Source: a bacterium (GTDB taxonomy: Bacteria > Zixibacteria > MSB-5A5 > WJJR01). Taken from it: a stretch of DNA of 33,828 bases. The stretch is from NCBI GenBank assembly GCA_035559435.1, contig DATMBC010000102.1, positions 1 to 33,828 of the forward strand, written 5' to 3'. A model generated the notes under the pieces. It did not search any database and was not told the origin of the DNA. It worked only from the letters and a program-made list of their open reading frames with translations. The translations under genes were made by a program, and so were the position numbers. This document shows, one piece after another, positions 3,279 to 13,539 of this stretch (positions are counted from its first letter, which is position 1; each line of letters begins with the position of its first letter).

Positions 3279-3311
3279 GCGGGATGAGGCGGGACGCCTC
3301 GTCCCGCTTTT
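3279..3311 (+). terminator. Intrinsic terminator after the PDZ gene
   Basis: A 12-bp stem pairs 3279-3290 with 3296-3307 (one T-G wobble) around the 5-nt loop GGGAC and is followed directly by TTTT at 3308-3311. Stem, short loop and T-run are those of a rho-independent terminator for the plus-strand PDZ gene. Confidence 0.85.
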
Positions 3312-3704
3312 CATTCGCACGCACCTTGGTTCTGCGAGCACATCGACGGGTCAAAACCCGGCGAGTAGATGTTCACGTACAGCACATAGGCGGAGAGGCA
3401 GGACGGCGGATTGGGCAGTGTCAGCTCGGACGCCTCATTCGCGGCTGCGGGGGCCTGATGGATGTTCTCTGGGTGGATCTTATAGGTGTACCAGGTGCTG
3501 CCACAGTGAAGTCCCATGCTCCAGGAAGGCCGACGTCGATGCCAGGGTCCCGCCGGACTGCCCGTCATTCTTCATGTTCCATTGCTGGTTCCAAAGCGAG
3601 TCTTGCGGGGCGGGCGCCTCTGCTCGGGAAGAACCGGTCCAAGCGAAGCAAAGTGCAATGAAGGCCAGGCAATATGCCTGTGTCGAGACTCTTGTACGGC
3701 TCAT
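3311..3704 (-). pseudogene. Remnant of a secreted subtilisin-like (S8) protease
   Basis: The first frame starts at ATG 3704 with an ideal Shine-Dalgarno AAGGAGG five bases upstream. It encodes a signal peptide and then DSLWNQQWNMKNDGQSGGT, which matches the entry segment of secreted subtilases (typically D-P-x-x-x-x-Q-W-x-L-x-N-x-G-Q-x-G-G-T-P-x-x-D-I-D-A-P-x-A-W-D). After GGT the homology continues only in the next frame as PGIDVGLPGAWDFT, so one base is missing, most simply one C in the run at about 3547-3550. From about 3480 a third frame carries a coding-like tail (YKIHPENIHQAP... QGACE) to a stop at 3311. The catalytic Asp, His and Ser segments are all absent. The locus is thus an internally deleted, frameshifted gene with an intact translation start. 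The tail is not assigned to any family. Confidence 0.65.
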
Positions 3705-3728
3705 ACACGCCTCCTTACGTGTGATGAA

Positions 3729-3849
3729 ACCATCAGGTTCTACCGCGTTCCATCGGTGAGTCGTGTGTGCTCACCGGTTGCCAAATCGAAAATCCATAGG
3801 CCGACCTCCTTTCCTGCGAGTATTGGGTAGACCAGTTTGCCCCCATCCG
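3729..3849. repeat. 121-bp perfect direct repeat, copy 1
   Basis: Bases 3729-3849 are identical to 5401-5521 (constant offset 1672). The block covers the last 35 or so codons and the stop of the first PD40 lipoprotein gene plus 11 bp beyond the stop. Identity ends abruptly on both sides: at 3728 outside the gene and at 3850 inside it. Confidence 0.95.
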
Positions 3850-4711
3850 CGGAGAATGACATTGCCGTTGTCAGCAAGGTCGTAATGGTCCGCGGGGATC
3901 CTGATCCACGATCAAGCAGGATTAGACTTGTGCCCTTGTTGTAGGCCACATACCGGTGGTCCAGAGAAATCTGAGCTCCGGGCTGACCCGATTGGCTAAG
4001 CTGGAGCGCCGATCCAATGGCCTCGGGGCTGAACACCATGAGCCAGTAGCCGCCCTGCGTGCCGCTAAAACCGACAAGAGAATCGCTCTCATCCGGAAAG
4101 GCGGAAGTTCCAAAAACTAAAGTCTCCTGCGTGCTCCAGCGGCGCAGACTATCCCCTTCCAATGTCACGGAGAAGAGACCGCCCACCCGGCCATCGTTGA
4201 CGGTAAAGAAGACCAAGTTCCTTGCTCTGGAGTATGACGGGTTATCGTGAAACTCCCCAGACGTCAACTGAACCAGAGAGTCCAAGTCCGATGTCATCTT
4301 GAAGATCCCCGGGCCCGCCCCGAAGAGCAGCCATTTCCCATCGGGGGTCCAACTGAAGGCGAAGGGAGAGAGGGCATTTTGCGGCCGCTCCCTCAGAATC
4401 TCACCGGTTGATGCGTCCAGAACTGCGGTGAATGCGGCTCCGTCGAAGGAGTCATCCCTTCGCCAAATGGTGCAGACGATCTCTCGTCCGTCGGGCGACC
4501 ATGCAGGGGTATACCAGATCTGCTTGATCACCACCGGGTCCGGTTCGTTGGACTTCGAGCCGCAGAAACTGAGAGTCAGCGTCGTTGCACCGAGAACTGC
4601 AGCCAATTGAACCCACTTCCGTCGGAACGTCAGACGGAGAACTGCATTTCTGCCGAATTCGTCTCCAGTTTCTCTCGACGGCGTCCACTTTTCGGCTTCG
4701 GCCTTACGCAT
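3740..4711 (-). CDS. PD40 beta-propeller lipoprotein, paralogue 1
   Basis: A 323-aa envelope protein. The N terminus has basic residues, a hydrophobic helix and a cysteine (LTLSFCGSKS). This is a somewhat atypical lipobox because Phe precedes Cys, so lipidation is probable but not certain. The rest is a TolB/PD40-type beta-propeller with repeated blade motifs AWSPDG, SWTPDG and SFSADGG and a closing LWIFDLATGEHTRLT. Such propellers usually bind peptides or polysaccharide-linked partners; no enzymatic residues are visible. The start ATG at 4711 is chosen for its GGGAGG Shine-Dalgarno six bases upstream and because it gives exactly the length of the paralogue at 5412-6383. The last 35 or so residues are identical, down to the DNA, to that paralogue, whereas the remainder is only about half identical by eye. 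Blade sequences also resemble the sensor halves of the PD40 kinases at 16038-21442. Confidence 0.8.
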   Translation of the reverse strand: MRKAEAEKWTPSRETGDEFGRNAVLRLTFRRKWVQLAAVLGATTLTLSFCGSKSNEPDPVVIKQIWYTPAWSPDGREIVCTIWRRDDSFDGAAFTAVLDASTGEILRERPQNALSPFAFSWTPDGKWLLFGAGPGIFKMTSDLDSLVQLTSGEFHDNPSYSRARNLVFFTVNDGRVGGLFSVTLEGDSLRRWSTQETLVFGTSAFPDESDSLVGFSGTQGGYWLMVFSPEAIGSALQLSQSGQPGAQISLDHRYVAYNKGTSLILLDRGSGSPRTITTLLTTAMSFSADGGKLVYPILAGKEVGLWIFDLATGEHTRLTDGTR

Positions 4712-4757
4712 GAGAATCCTCCCACGCATCTGCGTGGTATTTGCTCTAGCGGTCAAG

Positions 4758-4786
4758 ATGTCGCCCCCCCCCCGGCGCAAAGTCAA
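4758..4786 (-). promoter_or_regulatory. Candidate promoter with G10 tract in the spacer
   Basis: On the minus strand TTGACT (4786-4781) is a five-of-six match to the sigma-70 -35 box. It is followed by TTGCGCC and ten G residues (complement of C10 at 4764-4773), then by CGACATCTT. A -10-like CATCTT lies 20 bp after the -35 box, longer than the optimal 17, and would come closer to optimal if the tract lost 2-3 bases. The lipoprotein ATG is about 50 bp further on. The -35 box is visible; the -10 assignment is weak. Confidence 0.35.
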
Positions 4787-4942
4787 ACGAAATCTGCCGG
4801 AGGCATGAAGTCTTGGACAATTGCCGATTCCTGGGCCACATCCGCTAGAACTCGCCTTTTGAACTTGCCCACTCGACTCTATCGTGTGAATACCGGTGGA
4901 CCGGCAGTCTATTCCTGGCCGGGTGGGGGATGGAATGAAATA

Positions 4943-5235
4943 CGTGGCCGCAGTCTCCGAGGACTGTTGAAAGACCCAGCGAGTGTCCCAGTCGAAAAAA
5001 GGCCGCGTGGCGTGGGTGACCCTCCAAGCGCGACAGATCGACTTGCGTGGCCGCCCCTCGGCGTCGCTCGTGATCCCTGACGGTCTGCGACCGCGGTGGG
5101 CCGAAGGCACATATTGCCCGCGCAACTTCAAGCCAATTCCTCAATCCTTGATTCTTCCCCCATTCCGCACTTGCTCGGCCGCTTGCAGTGCGGTTGTCTC
5201 GCTCCGCTCGACCGCAGTCAGAGACTGCGGCCACG
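4943..5235. repeat. 15-bp exact inverted repeat pair
   Basis: CGTGGCCGCAGTCTC at 4943-4957 is the exact reverse complement of 5221-5235, with 263 bp between. No transposase frame lies between the arms and I see no flanking target-site duplication, so this may be only two copies of a dispersed short repeat. Confidence 0.5.
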
Positions 5236-5334
5236 CAATTTCAATCATTCGCGCCACCCGGACCAGTCGAGCCGACTGGTAAAGCCAGGAGGAATCTCGG
5301 GTGAGTGAGGCAGTTGTGAGTCGGGACGGGGGAC

Positions 5335-5392
5335 ATGTGTCTTCCCCTCGGCAATGCTCGGGACAAGCGACACATCGCGGTCGCAGACCGCG
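5335..5392. repeat. Palindromic block next to the 121-bp repeat
   Basis: ATGTGTC (5335-5341) pairs with GACACAT (5369-5375). Immediately after, CGCGGTC (5376-5382) pairs with GACCGCG (5386-5392) around GCA. The block ends 8 bp before copy 2 of the 121-bp repeat begins at 5401, so it may mark a recombination boundary. Confidence 0.5.
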
Positions 5393-5400
5393 GCCACCCG

Positions 5401-5521
5401 ACCATCAGGTTCTACCGCGTTCCATCGGTGAGTCGTGTGTGCTCACCGGTTGCCAAATCGAAAATCCATAGGCCGACCTCCTTTCCTGCGAGTATTGGGT
5501 AGACCAGTTTGCCCCCATCCG
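5401..5521. repeat. 121-bp perfect direct repeat, copy 2
   Basis: Identical to 3729-3849. In this copy it covers the end and stop of the second PD40 lipoprotein gene plus 11 bp beyond it, abutting the palindromic block at 5335-5392. Confidence 0.95.
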
Positions 5522-6383
5522 GAGAGAAGTCCATGCCTTCCGTCGCCGAAACGTCCAGACTATGAATCGAATCGGTGGAGCGATCCAGTATCATCAGATT
5601 TCCTGACGGAACATGGACGCCAGCGTTATAGGCGATATATCTATGATCCCGCGATATTCGAGCGAATGGGCCGAGCGAGTATATTCCCAGGAAATAAGCG
5701 TGCGATATGCTATCGGGTCTGAACACCATCAACCGGGCGGAGCCGCTCGTGGGGTCGAATCCGATGAGTGAATCGCTGCTATCCGGAAATGCGAAGGCCT
5801 GCAGAATGATCGATTCAGCGGTACTCCATCTCAGCAGGCTATCGCCGTCTATCGTGACAGAAAAGAGTCCGCCCTTGGTTGCCTCGTTCTGCGTGAAAAA
5901 GACGAGGTCTCTCGAGCGAGAATACGACGGCCATCCATGGAACTGTCCCGAGGTTAGTTGAAAGACGATGTTGAGATCGGACGACATCTTGAAGATGCCC
6001 GGGCCCGAAGAAAACAACAACCACGCGCCGTCGGGTGTCCACGACAGGGAGAAGGGAATGATGGGACCTAGTTGACGCTCTCGTCGCACTGCTCCGGTGG
6101 TCGCGTCCAGAATTGCAATGAACACCTTCACTCCCCCTGAATCGTCAAATCGATCGATTGTGCAGGCCACTTCCGTCCCGTCTGGGGACCAGGCCGGGAT
6201 ATAGTAGATCGCCTTGGGCGCCGGAGGTTCCGGATCCGAGCCCTTCGAGTCGCAAGAGCCGACAGTAACAAGCAGCAGAACTGAGGCGACTATCTGTCTG
6301 GCAGGGACCGCTATGCGCGCCAAGATCGCAGACACACGGCAGCACCCTGCGAAGTCATCCCTTCGACACCTTGGAAGCGACAT
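5412..6383 (-). CDS. PD40 beta-propeller lipoprotein, paralogue 2
   Basis: A 323-aa paralogue of the protein encoded at 3740-4711. The hydrophobic segment ends in a good lipobox (LLLVTVGSC), followed by an acidic/proline spacer, so this is a lipoprotein of the envelope. Blades carry AWSPDG, SWTPDG, SGPGIFKMSSDL and DFSPDGGKLVYP. The final 35 or so residues are identical to the paralogue. ATG 6383 is chosen because it gives the same length as the paralogue; the Shine-Dalgarno is poor, and a GTG at 6335, just before the hydrophobic segment, is an alternative. A TTGACT box lies about 70 bp upstream. Both genes point the same way and are separated by 700 bp of repeats, so they look like independently transcribed tandem duplicates rather than an operon. 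No partner enzyme is adjacent. Confidence 0.8.
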   Translation of the reverse strand: MSLPRCRRDDFAGCCRVSAILARIAVPARQIVASVLLLVTVGSCDSKGSDPEPPAPKAIYYIPAWSPDGTEVACTIDRFDDSGGVKVFIAILDATTGAVRRERQLGPIIPFSLSWTPDGAWLLFSSGPGIFKMSSDLNIVFQLTSGQFHGWPSYSRSRDLVFFTQNEATKGGLFSVTIDGDSLLRWSTAESIILQAFAFPDSSDSLIGFDPTSGSARLMVFRPDSISHAYFLGIYSLGPFARISRDHRYIAYNAGVHVPSGNLMILDRSTDSIHSLDVSATEGMDFSPDGGKLVYPILAGKEVGLWIFDLATGEHTRLTDGTR

Positions 6384-6427
6384 TCTTGCACCCAATGGGA
6401 TTTGGCGGAGGCCTTTCGCTCGGAGAC

Positions 6428-11046: not shown

Positions 11047-13539
11047 ATGATCGGACAATCAATCGCGCATTACCAAATCATCCGCAAGCTCGGGTCCGGC
11101 GGCATGGGCGAAGTTTTCCTTGCGCAGGACAGCCGTCTGGAGCGTCAGGTTGCGTTGAAGTTTCTTTCTGAAAATCTGACGAAAGACCCGGAGGCGCGCG
11201 CCCGTCTGCTGCGCGAGGCCAAGGCGGCCTCCAAGCTCAATCACCCGAACATCATGACAATCCACGCGGTCGAATCCATCAATGACCGCGATTTCATCGT
11301 CATGGAGTATGTTGAGGGGCAGGATCTCGCCGCTTATCTGAAATCGCGCGCGCTGTCGACCGAAGACAAGCTCACGCTGGGCATCCAGATCGCCGAAGGG
11401 CTGGGCCGGGCCCACGCCGCCGGCGTCATCCACCGCGACGTGAAGCCGTCGAACGTGCTGGTTGACCAGGACGGCCGTCCGCGGCTGCTCGACTTCGGAT
11501 TGGCGACCTTCGAAGGCGCGGCGCGTCTGACCCAAACCGGCTCGACCGTCGGGACCGCCGCCTACATGTCCCCCGAGCAGGCCAGCGGCCGCGACTGCGA
11601 CCATCGCTCCGACTTGTTCTCGTTCGGCGTGGTGCTCTACGAAATGCTTGCCGACCGCCTGCCTTTCCAGGGTGCGCACAACGCGGCCTTGATGTACGCG
11701 ATCGTCAACGACGAGCCGCAGCCGCTGGCGCGGTATCTGACCGGCGTGTCCGAGGAACTGCAACGCATCGTCTCGAAGTGTCTGGCCAAACATCCGGCCG
11801 AGCGCTACCAGTCGGCGGCGGATCTGATTGCCGACCTGCGCCGGCTGGTGCGCACCAGCAGCTCCGGCAGTCCGCAGGCGGTCGCGCGCAAGAAGATGCT
11901 GGCGGTGCTGCCGTTTGAGAACCTCGGCCCGGCCGACGATGAGTACTTCGCCGACGGCATCACCGAGGAGATCATCAGCCGTCTGGCGGCGGTGGCCGAA
12001 ATCGGCGTGATTTCGCGCACCAGCGTCATGCAGTACAAGGGGACCAAGAAGCCGATCCGCGAGATCGGCGGCGAGCTGGGCGTCGACTATGTGCTCGAAG
12101 GCACGGTGCGCTGGGGCAAGGCCGCGCAGGGGCCCAGCCGCGTGCGCATCACGCCGCAGTTGATCCGCGTCAACGAGGACACGCACATGTGGTCGGACCG
12201 CTACGACCGCGTCCTGGAGGACATCTTTGACGTGCAGTCGGACATCGCCGAAAAGGTGACCGAACAGCTGAACGTCAAGCTGGGCGATCCCGAGCGCCGC
12301 GCCATCGAGGCCAAGCCGACCGAGAATCTCGACGCGTATCACGCGTATCTGCGCGGTTACGAATACATCACCAATCCGGATTACACGGCGGAGAACCACC
12401 GGCTGGCGATCCAGATGTTTGAGCGCGCGGTCTCCTTCGATCCCGCGTTCGCGCAGGCGCATGCCTGTCTGTCGATCGCGCACTCGGGACTGTACTTTTT
12501 TGGGGGCGATCCGACCCCGGAGCGCGCGGAGAAGGCGCGGCAGACGGTCGCCACGGCGCTGTCGCTGAAGCCCGATGACGCACTGACCGCAATCGCCAAC
12601 GGTTTCTATCTCTACCGTTGCCGGATCGACTACGAAGACGCCCTGGATGAATTCAAACGCGCCGTGCGTCTCAGGCCCAACCACGCGCTGGCCATCTTTC
12701 TCATTGCGGCGATTCAACGGCGGCTGGGACGCCCGGCCGAGGCGCTCGAAGGCATCAAGGCCGCCCAGAAGCTCGACCCCGCCAGCATCCAGTACATCAC
12801 CGAAGCCGGGATTACCTGCTTCCTCCTGCGGCGTTTCGACGAAGCGGAATCGTATCTGAACCAGTCAATCCGGCTCGCCCCCGATCAGTACAACGCGTAC
12901 ACCTGGTACGCCATGCTTCGGTTGTTCGCCTACGGCGACTTGCCGGGAGCGCGCCGACGACTGGAGTCCATGGGGGAACGCGGACTTGAAGAGGCGTTTA
13001 TCGAATGGTTCGAGGTGCTGCTGGCCGAACGTGCGCTCGCTCCGGTGCTGGCGCACATTGAACGACTGCCCGGCCATGAATACGTCGACCAGACCTGGTA
13101 CTACCCCAAGCCGCTGCTGTACGCTGAGGCGCATGCTCTGCTGGGACAGCCCGACGAGGCGAAGGAATTCTTCCGTCAGGCGCACGTTCAGTTGATGAGG
13201 GATCCCATCGCGGCGGCGGATGTTCGCCGGCGCCTGGCTCTGGCGCGTGTGCTGGTCGGATTGGGCGAGTGCGAAGTCGCTCTGGCCGCCGCGCGGGAGG
13301 CGATGGCGGAAAACCCGCTTGCGAAAGACGCACTCCTGTCATCCACCTTCGACGAAATTTACGCGATCCTCCTGGCCGTGGCGGGAGAGCATGACCAGGC
13401 GCTGGCCATCCTCGAGCGGTTGCTGTCCACCCCCACATGGGTGTCGTCCGGATACCTCATGCGGTCGCCGCGCTGGGATGCGCTTCGGCAGCACCCGGAG
13501 TTCCAGCGCCTCCTCAACCTCCCCCCAAAGGTGTTTTAG
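11047..13539 (+). CDS. Ser/Thr kinase 2 of 9: kinase-TolB_N-TPR, cytosolic
   Basis: An 830-aa protein with a complete kinase core: GSGGMGEV, Lys38 in VALK, HRDVKPSN, LDFGLA, and activation loop TQTGSTVGTAAYMSPEQ with several Thr/Ser. From residue 284 the TolB_N-like domain reads LAVLPFENLGPADDEYFADG, then VLEGTVRWG, then MWSDRYDR. This is a subtype shared with kinases 3 and 9 and distinct from kinases 1 and 6. TPR repeats fill about residues 430-800, and the end RWDALRQHPEFQRLLNLPPKVF carries the family tail motif. No membrane helix is visible. ATG 11047 follows the array-wide MIGQ start; an ATG at 11038 would add three residues. The gap to kinase 1 is 36 bp. The last codons contain AAAGGTG, which serves as ribosome-binding site for kinase 3. 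Confidence 0.92.
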   Translation: MIGQSIAHYQIIRKLGSGGMGEVFLAQDSRLERQVALKFLSENLTKDPEARARLLREAKAASKLNHPNIMTIHAVESINDRDFIVMEYVEGQDLAAYLKSRALSTEDKLTLGIQIAEGLGRAHAAGVIHRDVKPSNVLVDQDGRPRLLDFGLATFEGAARLTQTGSTVGTAAYMSPEQASGRDCDHRSDLFSFGVVLYEMLADRLPFQGAHNAALMYAIVNDEPQPLARYLTGVSEELQRIVSKCLAKHPAERYQSAADLIADLRRLVRTSSSGSPQAVARKKMLAVLPFENLGPADDEYFADGITEEIISRLAAVAEIGVISRTSVMQYKGTKKPIREIGGELGVDYVLEGTVRWGKAAQGPSRVRITPQLIRVNEDTHMWSDRYDRVLEDIFDVQSDIAEKVTEQLNVKLGDPERRAIEAKPTENLDAYHAYLRGYEYITNPDYTAENHRLAIQMFERAVSFDPAFAQAHACLSIAHSGLYFFGGDPTPERAEKARQTVATALSLKPDDALTAIANGFYLYRCRIDYEDALDEFKRAVRLRPNHALAIFLIAAIQRRLGRPAEALEGIKAAQKLDPASIQYITEAGITCFLLRRFDEAESYLNQSIRLAPDQYNAYTWYAMLRLFAYGDLPGARRRLESMGERGLEEAFIEWFEVLLAERALAPVLAHIERLPGHEYVDQTWYYPKPLLYAEAHALLGQPDEAKEFFRQAHVQLMRDPIAAADVRRRLALARVLVGLGECEVALAAAREAMAENPLAKDALLSSTFDEIYAILLAVAGEHDQALAILERLLSTPTWVSSGYLMRSPRWDALRQHPEFQRLLNLPPKVF
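13527..13533 (+). promoter_or_regulatory. Shine-Dalgarno inside kinase 2 C-terminal codons
   Basis: AAAGGTG overlaps the Pro-Lys-Val codons at the end of kinase 2 and lies six bases before the ATG of kinase 3 (13540), which itself follows the TAG stop without a gap. It fixes the kinase 3 start. Confidence 0.6.

Follow-up and report, generated by a model that had tools for sequence, protein, structure and literature searches.

Gene conversion with silent cassettes underlies antigenic variation in the vls system of Borrelia and the pilE/pilS system of Neisseria, and REP-like palindromic intergenic repeats are known as recombination edges. The pair of tandem lipoprotein genes described here resembles vls and pilE/pilS in that segments pass among gene copies for surface lipoproteins or proteins, but there are no silent cassettes, no array and no third body, and a single event is apparent. 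As with REP-like edges, a palindromic intergenic motif stops one base off the exchanged block; unlike REP-like repeats, the repeat is low-copy and degenerate, and its involvement is only suggested, from a single instance. Partial conversion of old bacterial paralogues has been described for the release-factor genes RF1 and RF2 (Ishikawa et al., 2015; PMC4530459; doi 10.1038/srep12406). The likeness is that a segment for a functionally common domain was copied across diverged paralogues while the rest kept its own history, with the direction of ectopic conversion inferred from phylogeny (PMC4530459); the difference is that the tract at our locus is short, fully identical and recent, occupies the very 3′ end of the gene and extends into non-coding DNA. 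The case is a clean example of old paralogues partly homogenised, and it adds a short, recent, 3′-terminal instance to known paralogue conversion.

The window, by which we mean the whole stretch of 33,828 nucleotides analysed, is an entire contig (C102) of a draft genome of 2.99 Mb in 106 contigs that is rated 100% complete. Gene 2 lies upstream of gene 1, both on the minus strand with ~700 bp between them (Table 1). The PD40 domain (PF07676, WD40-like propeller) scored 27.8 and 24.0 bits in the two products, both above the curated cut-off of 20.9, and both have signal-like N-termini with a candidate lipobox, identified by reading only, in which a hydrophobic stretch is followed by Cys (TLSFCGSK and VTVGSCDSK). 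A sequence-only reading had given each gene 323 codons; from the starts used here they have 322 and 327, and the figure of 323 depends on start choice. Relatives of the genes were sought in 58 related genomes and then in 132 genomes across the phylum, and the sole close member beyond the home genome was found in G004, a genome of another genus in the same family. This gene (L012 1658-2707, minus strand) is an orthologue of gene 1, with 67% identity over 282 aa. The lipoprotein gene pair looks accessory, because no lipoprotein gene of this type was present in the stretches beside a conserved PDZ gene in five family relatives and the G004 orthologue sits on a contig other than that of the PDZ-gene locus. 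A tract of ten C at 4764-4773 precedes the start of gene 1 (4708, minus strand), and its length could be variable.

Table 1. Coordinates of the features at the lipoprotein locus, numbered along the window.
Feature	Position	Strand	Basis or remark
Downstream reading-frame remnant	3311..3709	-	Starts ATGAGCCGTAC after AAGGAGG; start conserved beside G004 orthologue
Block copy 1, likely donor	3729..3849	-	Gene 1 3′ end with stop, plus 3′ flank (11 bp); exact match to 5401-5521
Gene 1 (322 aa), PD40 beta-propeller lipoprotein	3740..4708	-	PF07676, E 2.5e-6; G004 orthologue
Degenerate copy of palindrome-bearing intergenic repeat, ~160 bp	5081..5240		73% identical to contig C96 copy
Palindrome CGCGGTC-GCA-GACCGCG	5376..5392		Belongs to degenerate intergenic repeat motif stopping at 5399
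Block copy 2, likely recipient	5401..5521	-	Gene 2 3′ end with stop, plus gene-1-type flank (11 bp)
Gene 2 (327 aa), PD40 beta-propeller lipoprotein	5412..6395	-	PF07676, E 3.7e-5; body tree

Direct sequence comparison showed that 3729-3849 and 5401-5521 are identical at 121/121 bp, with 0 bp of extension on either side, and that this block is the longest exact match of the gene 1 region against the gene 2 region. In each gene it takes in the final 36 codons and the TAG stop (3740-3742 in gene 1, 5412-5414 in gene 2), followed by 11 bp of non-coding flank. The inner edge falls within a stretch of conserved C-terminal propeller coding sequence that is alignable between the two genes, and the outer edge falls 11 bp 3′ of the stop, beyond which the gene 2 flank is unrelated. 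Protein identity between the two genes is 35/35 in the block and 139/281 aligned residues (~50%) in the bodies. The exact 121-bp identity, the inclusion of the stop codon with 11 non-coding bp, and bodies only about half identical had all been claimed from the sequence beforehand, and each was borne out. Third codon positions, compared at residues common to both proteins, agree at 34/34 in the block and at 53/132 in the bodies, and chance is therefore excluded as the source of the identity. The block thus displays, as ectopic conversion does, an identity far over that of the rest between sharp edges.

Comparison with the G004 orthologue bears on both the age of the block and the direction of exchange. 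Third positions of gene 1 agree with those of the orthologue at similar rates in the block (16/28) and in the body (96/163), and the flank of the orthologue equals the 11-bp flank of the block at nine of 11 bases. Homology between the orthologue and gene 1 runs past the stop, through the 11 bp, and into the ribosome site and start of the next frame (AAGGAGG...ATGAGCCGTAC), the flank alignment scoring 162, whereas shuffled sequences reached at most 24. Since the next-frame start is conserved beside the orthologue, the gene 1 flank is the ancestral one. DNA downstream of gene 2 had no similarity to the gene 1 or G004 flank when alignments were set against shuffles, and homology ends at 5401. Third positions of gene 2 agree with the orthologue at 16/28 in the block, the same as gene 1, and at 58/142 in the body, a shift that rests on small numbers. 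In a tree of the bodies, gene 1 groups with the orthologue and gene 2 falls outside, although the support is only 77 and the close members number three. More generally, the case is a warning that trees built from tails as short as these mislead. The flank shared with the orthologue, the block third positions of gene 2 and the body tree together indicate that gene 1 probably acted as donor and gene 2 as recipient, and that the tail of gene 2 was likely replaced well after the paralogues separated. Gene 1 retains the flank common to the orthologue, a pattern that a duplication plus deletion would leave as well as a non-reciprocal conversion. The downstream frame remnant is degenerate, and its N-terminus is subtilase-like by reading only (DSLWNQQWNMKNDGQSGGT); its counterpart in G004 is cut short beside a DDE transposase element (L012 50-1381).

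The palindrome lies 8 bp before block copy 2, as had been noted from the letters alone, and forms part of an intergenic repeat with two fuller copies on contig C96; the window itself has the degenerate copy at 5081-5240 as well as an isolated end at 5368-5399. The motif ends one base before block copy 2, and this adjoining position suggests that the motif set the edge of the exchange; it may have fixed the outer edge, for example as a stop or rejoining point, in what is a single instance. Two other interpretations were tried and rejected. An abundant REP family is not represented, the palindrome having seven matches (≤1 mismatch) against eight in a reversed control, and insertion of the repeat into a gene-1-like flank is not indicated, the far side having no similarity to the gene 1 flank above shuffles. 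On contig C96, two inverted ~250-bp intergenic repeats (L046 1525-1770 and 2740-2990) flank a 288-aa ORF, possibly as a small mobile unit.

We assign a probability of about 0.86 to a single recent event between the tandem paralogues, either an ectopic gene conversion or a duplication plus deletion of equivalent effect, in which the end of gene 1 overwrote the end of gene 2. The earlier proposal that the 3′ ends had recently undergone gene conversion or unequal exchange is thereby supported, and a likely, well-supported direction can be added, with gene 1 as source and gene 2 as target. The identity, its sharp edges, its recency, the lack of constraint on the DNA and the count of two copies in the genome are established, and the reading is one of ordinary recombination of duplicated genes, with no sign of a switching system. 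The tandem paralogous lipoprotein genes parted long ago, probably no later than the divergence of this genus from that of G004, and a recent ectopic recombination would then have overwritten the 3′ end of gene 2 with the corresponding end of gene 1. This may have occurred by one-ended invasion of gene 1, with ~121 nt copied before rejoining within the palindromic intergenic DNA, or by a tandem duplication of gene 1 and a later deletion that joined the body of gene 2 to the tail of gene 1; both routes yield the same result and are indistinguishable here. Counting against this reading, exchange at ~55% sequence identity is rare and needs C-terminal local similarity or microhomology, which is no longer visible.

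Selection on DNA or RNA could in principle keep the block identical, for example as a terminator or binding site, and the block does reach past the stop codon into the 3′ flank. The G004 orthologue, however, differs at 12/28 comparable third positions and at 2/11 flank bases, so DNA-level selection does not fix the block, and this explanation is extremely improbable. The excess identity does not come from constraint, as is also the case in ectopic conversion, and the comparison indicates a recently homogenised block; 0 changes in ~45 free sites put the divergence below ~0.07 per site by an approximate Poisson calculation (95%). An assembly artefact, in which a false join at the homologous 3′ ends made the second copy, has in its favor a draft of 106 contigs and a block length near the k-mer sizes that assemblers usually use. 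Against it, such a join must have fused genes that have no long exact match other than the block, and each copy has its own unrelated downstream flank; since both copies lie within a single contig and preserve the reading frame, an artefact is quite unlikely. The same exchange in reverse, from gene 2 to gene 1, is also unlikely, if less strongly so: just three close sequences are available and none is an unconverted gene 2, but the gene 1 flank is continuous with that of the orthologue across the block edge, and the block third positions are as near the orthologue as the gene 1 body is.

The sequence-only reading had also raised a programmed exchange that swaps alternative propeller bodies onto a fixed 3′ anchor, for which the sharp block edges and the palindrome directly beside copy 2 could speak, and lipoproteins often undergo antigenic variation. 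A search of all 106 contigs (2.99 Mb) of the genome for the block with other upstream bodies, as that reading had proposed, returned only the two known copies, despite the completeness rating, and a search of the same genome for further close bodies and for silent or partial cassettes found none, whereas silent-cassette systems have several. Plasmids and viral contigs contained no relative, a search of genome contigs gave nothing close, only weak propeller matches, and inspection by eye of the ORFs in the window revealed no recombinase. The one close outside gene among the 132 phylum genomes is single in G004, and its 3′ end drifts freely at third positions. Programmed cassette exchange is thus not upheld and is highly improbable. 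G004 also carries a distant tandem PD40-like pair (L013 4713-5006 and 5822-6115), in which the 5′ leader and N-terminus are 82% identical over 298 bp and the bodies 43%; the shared leader includes exact runs of 54 and 24 bp. This common leader fits sporadic exchange of tandem copies, or a retained duplicated leader, better than it fits a fixed 3′ anchor. It is very unlikely that the lineage diversifies slowly by repeated palindrome-edged exchange of the 3′ ends (in the sister genus, 5′ ends) of tandem propeller lipoproteins; if recurrent exchange appeared in other strains, it would be a diversification route for the surface propeller proteins of the lineage.

Elsewhere in the window, nine consecutive serine/threonine-protein-kinase-like genes occupy 8749-32873 on the plus strand, the first confirmed by Pfam and the others by repeat families. 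The second and third of these genes display patches of high third-position identity (~11488-12205) that drops downstream.
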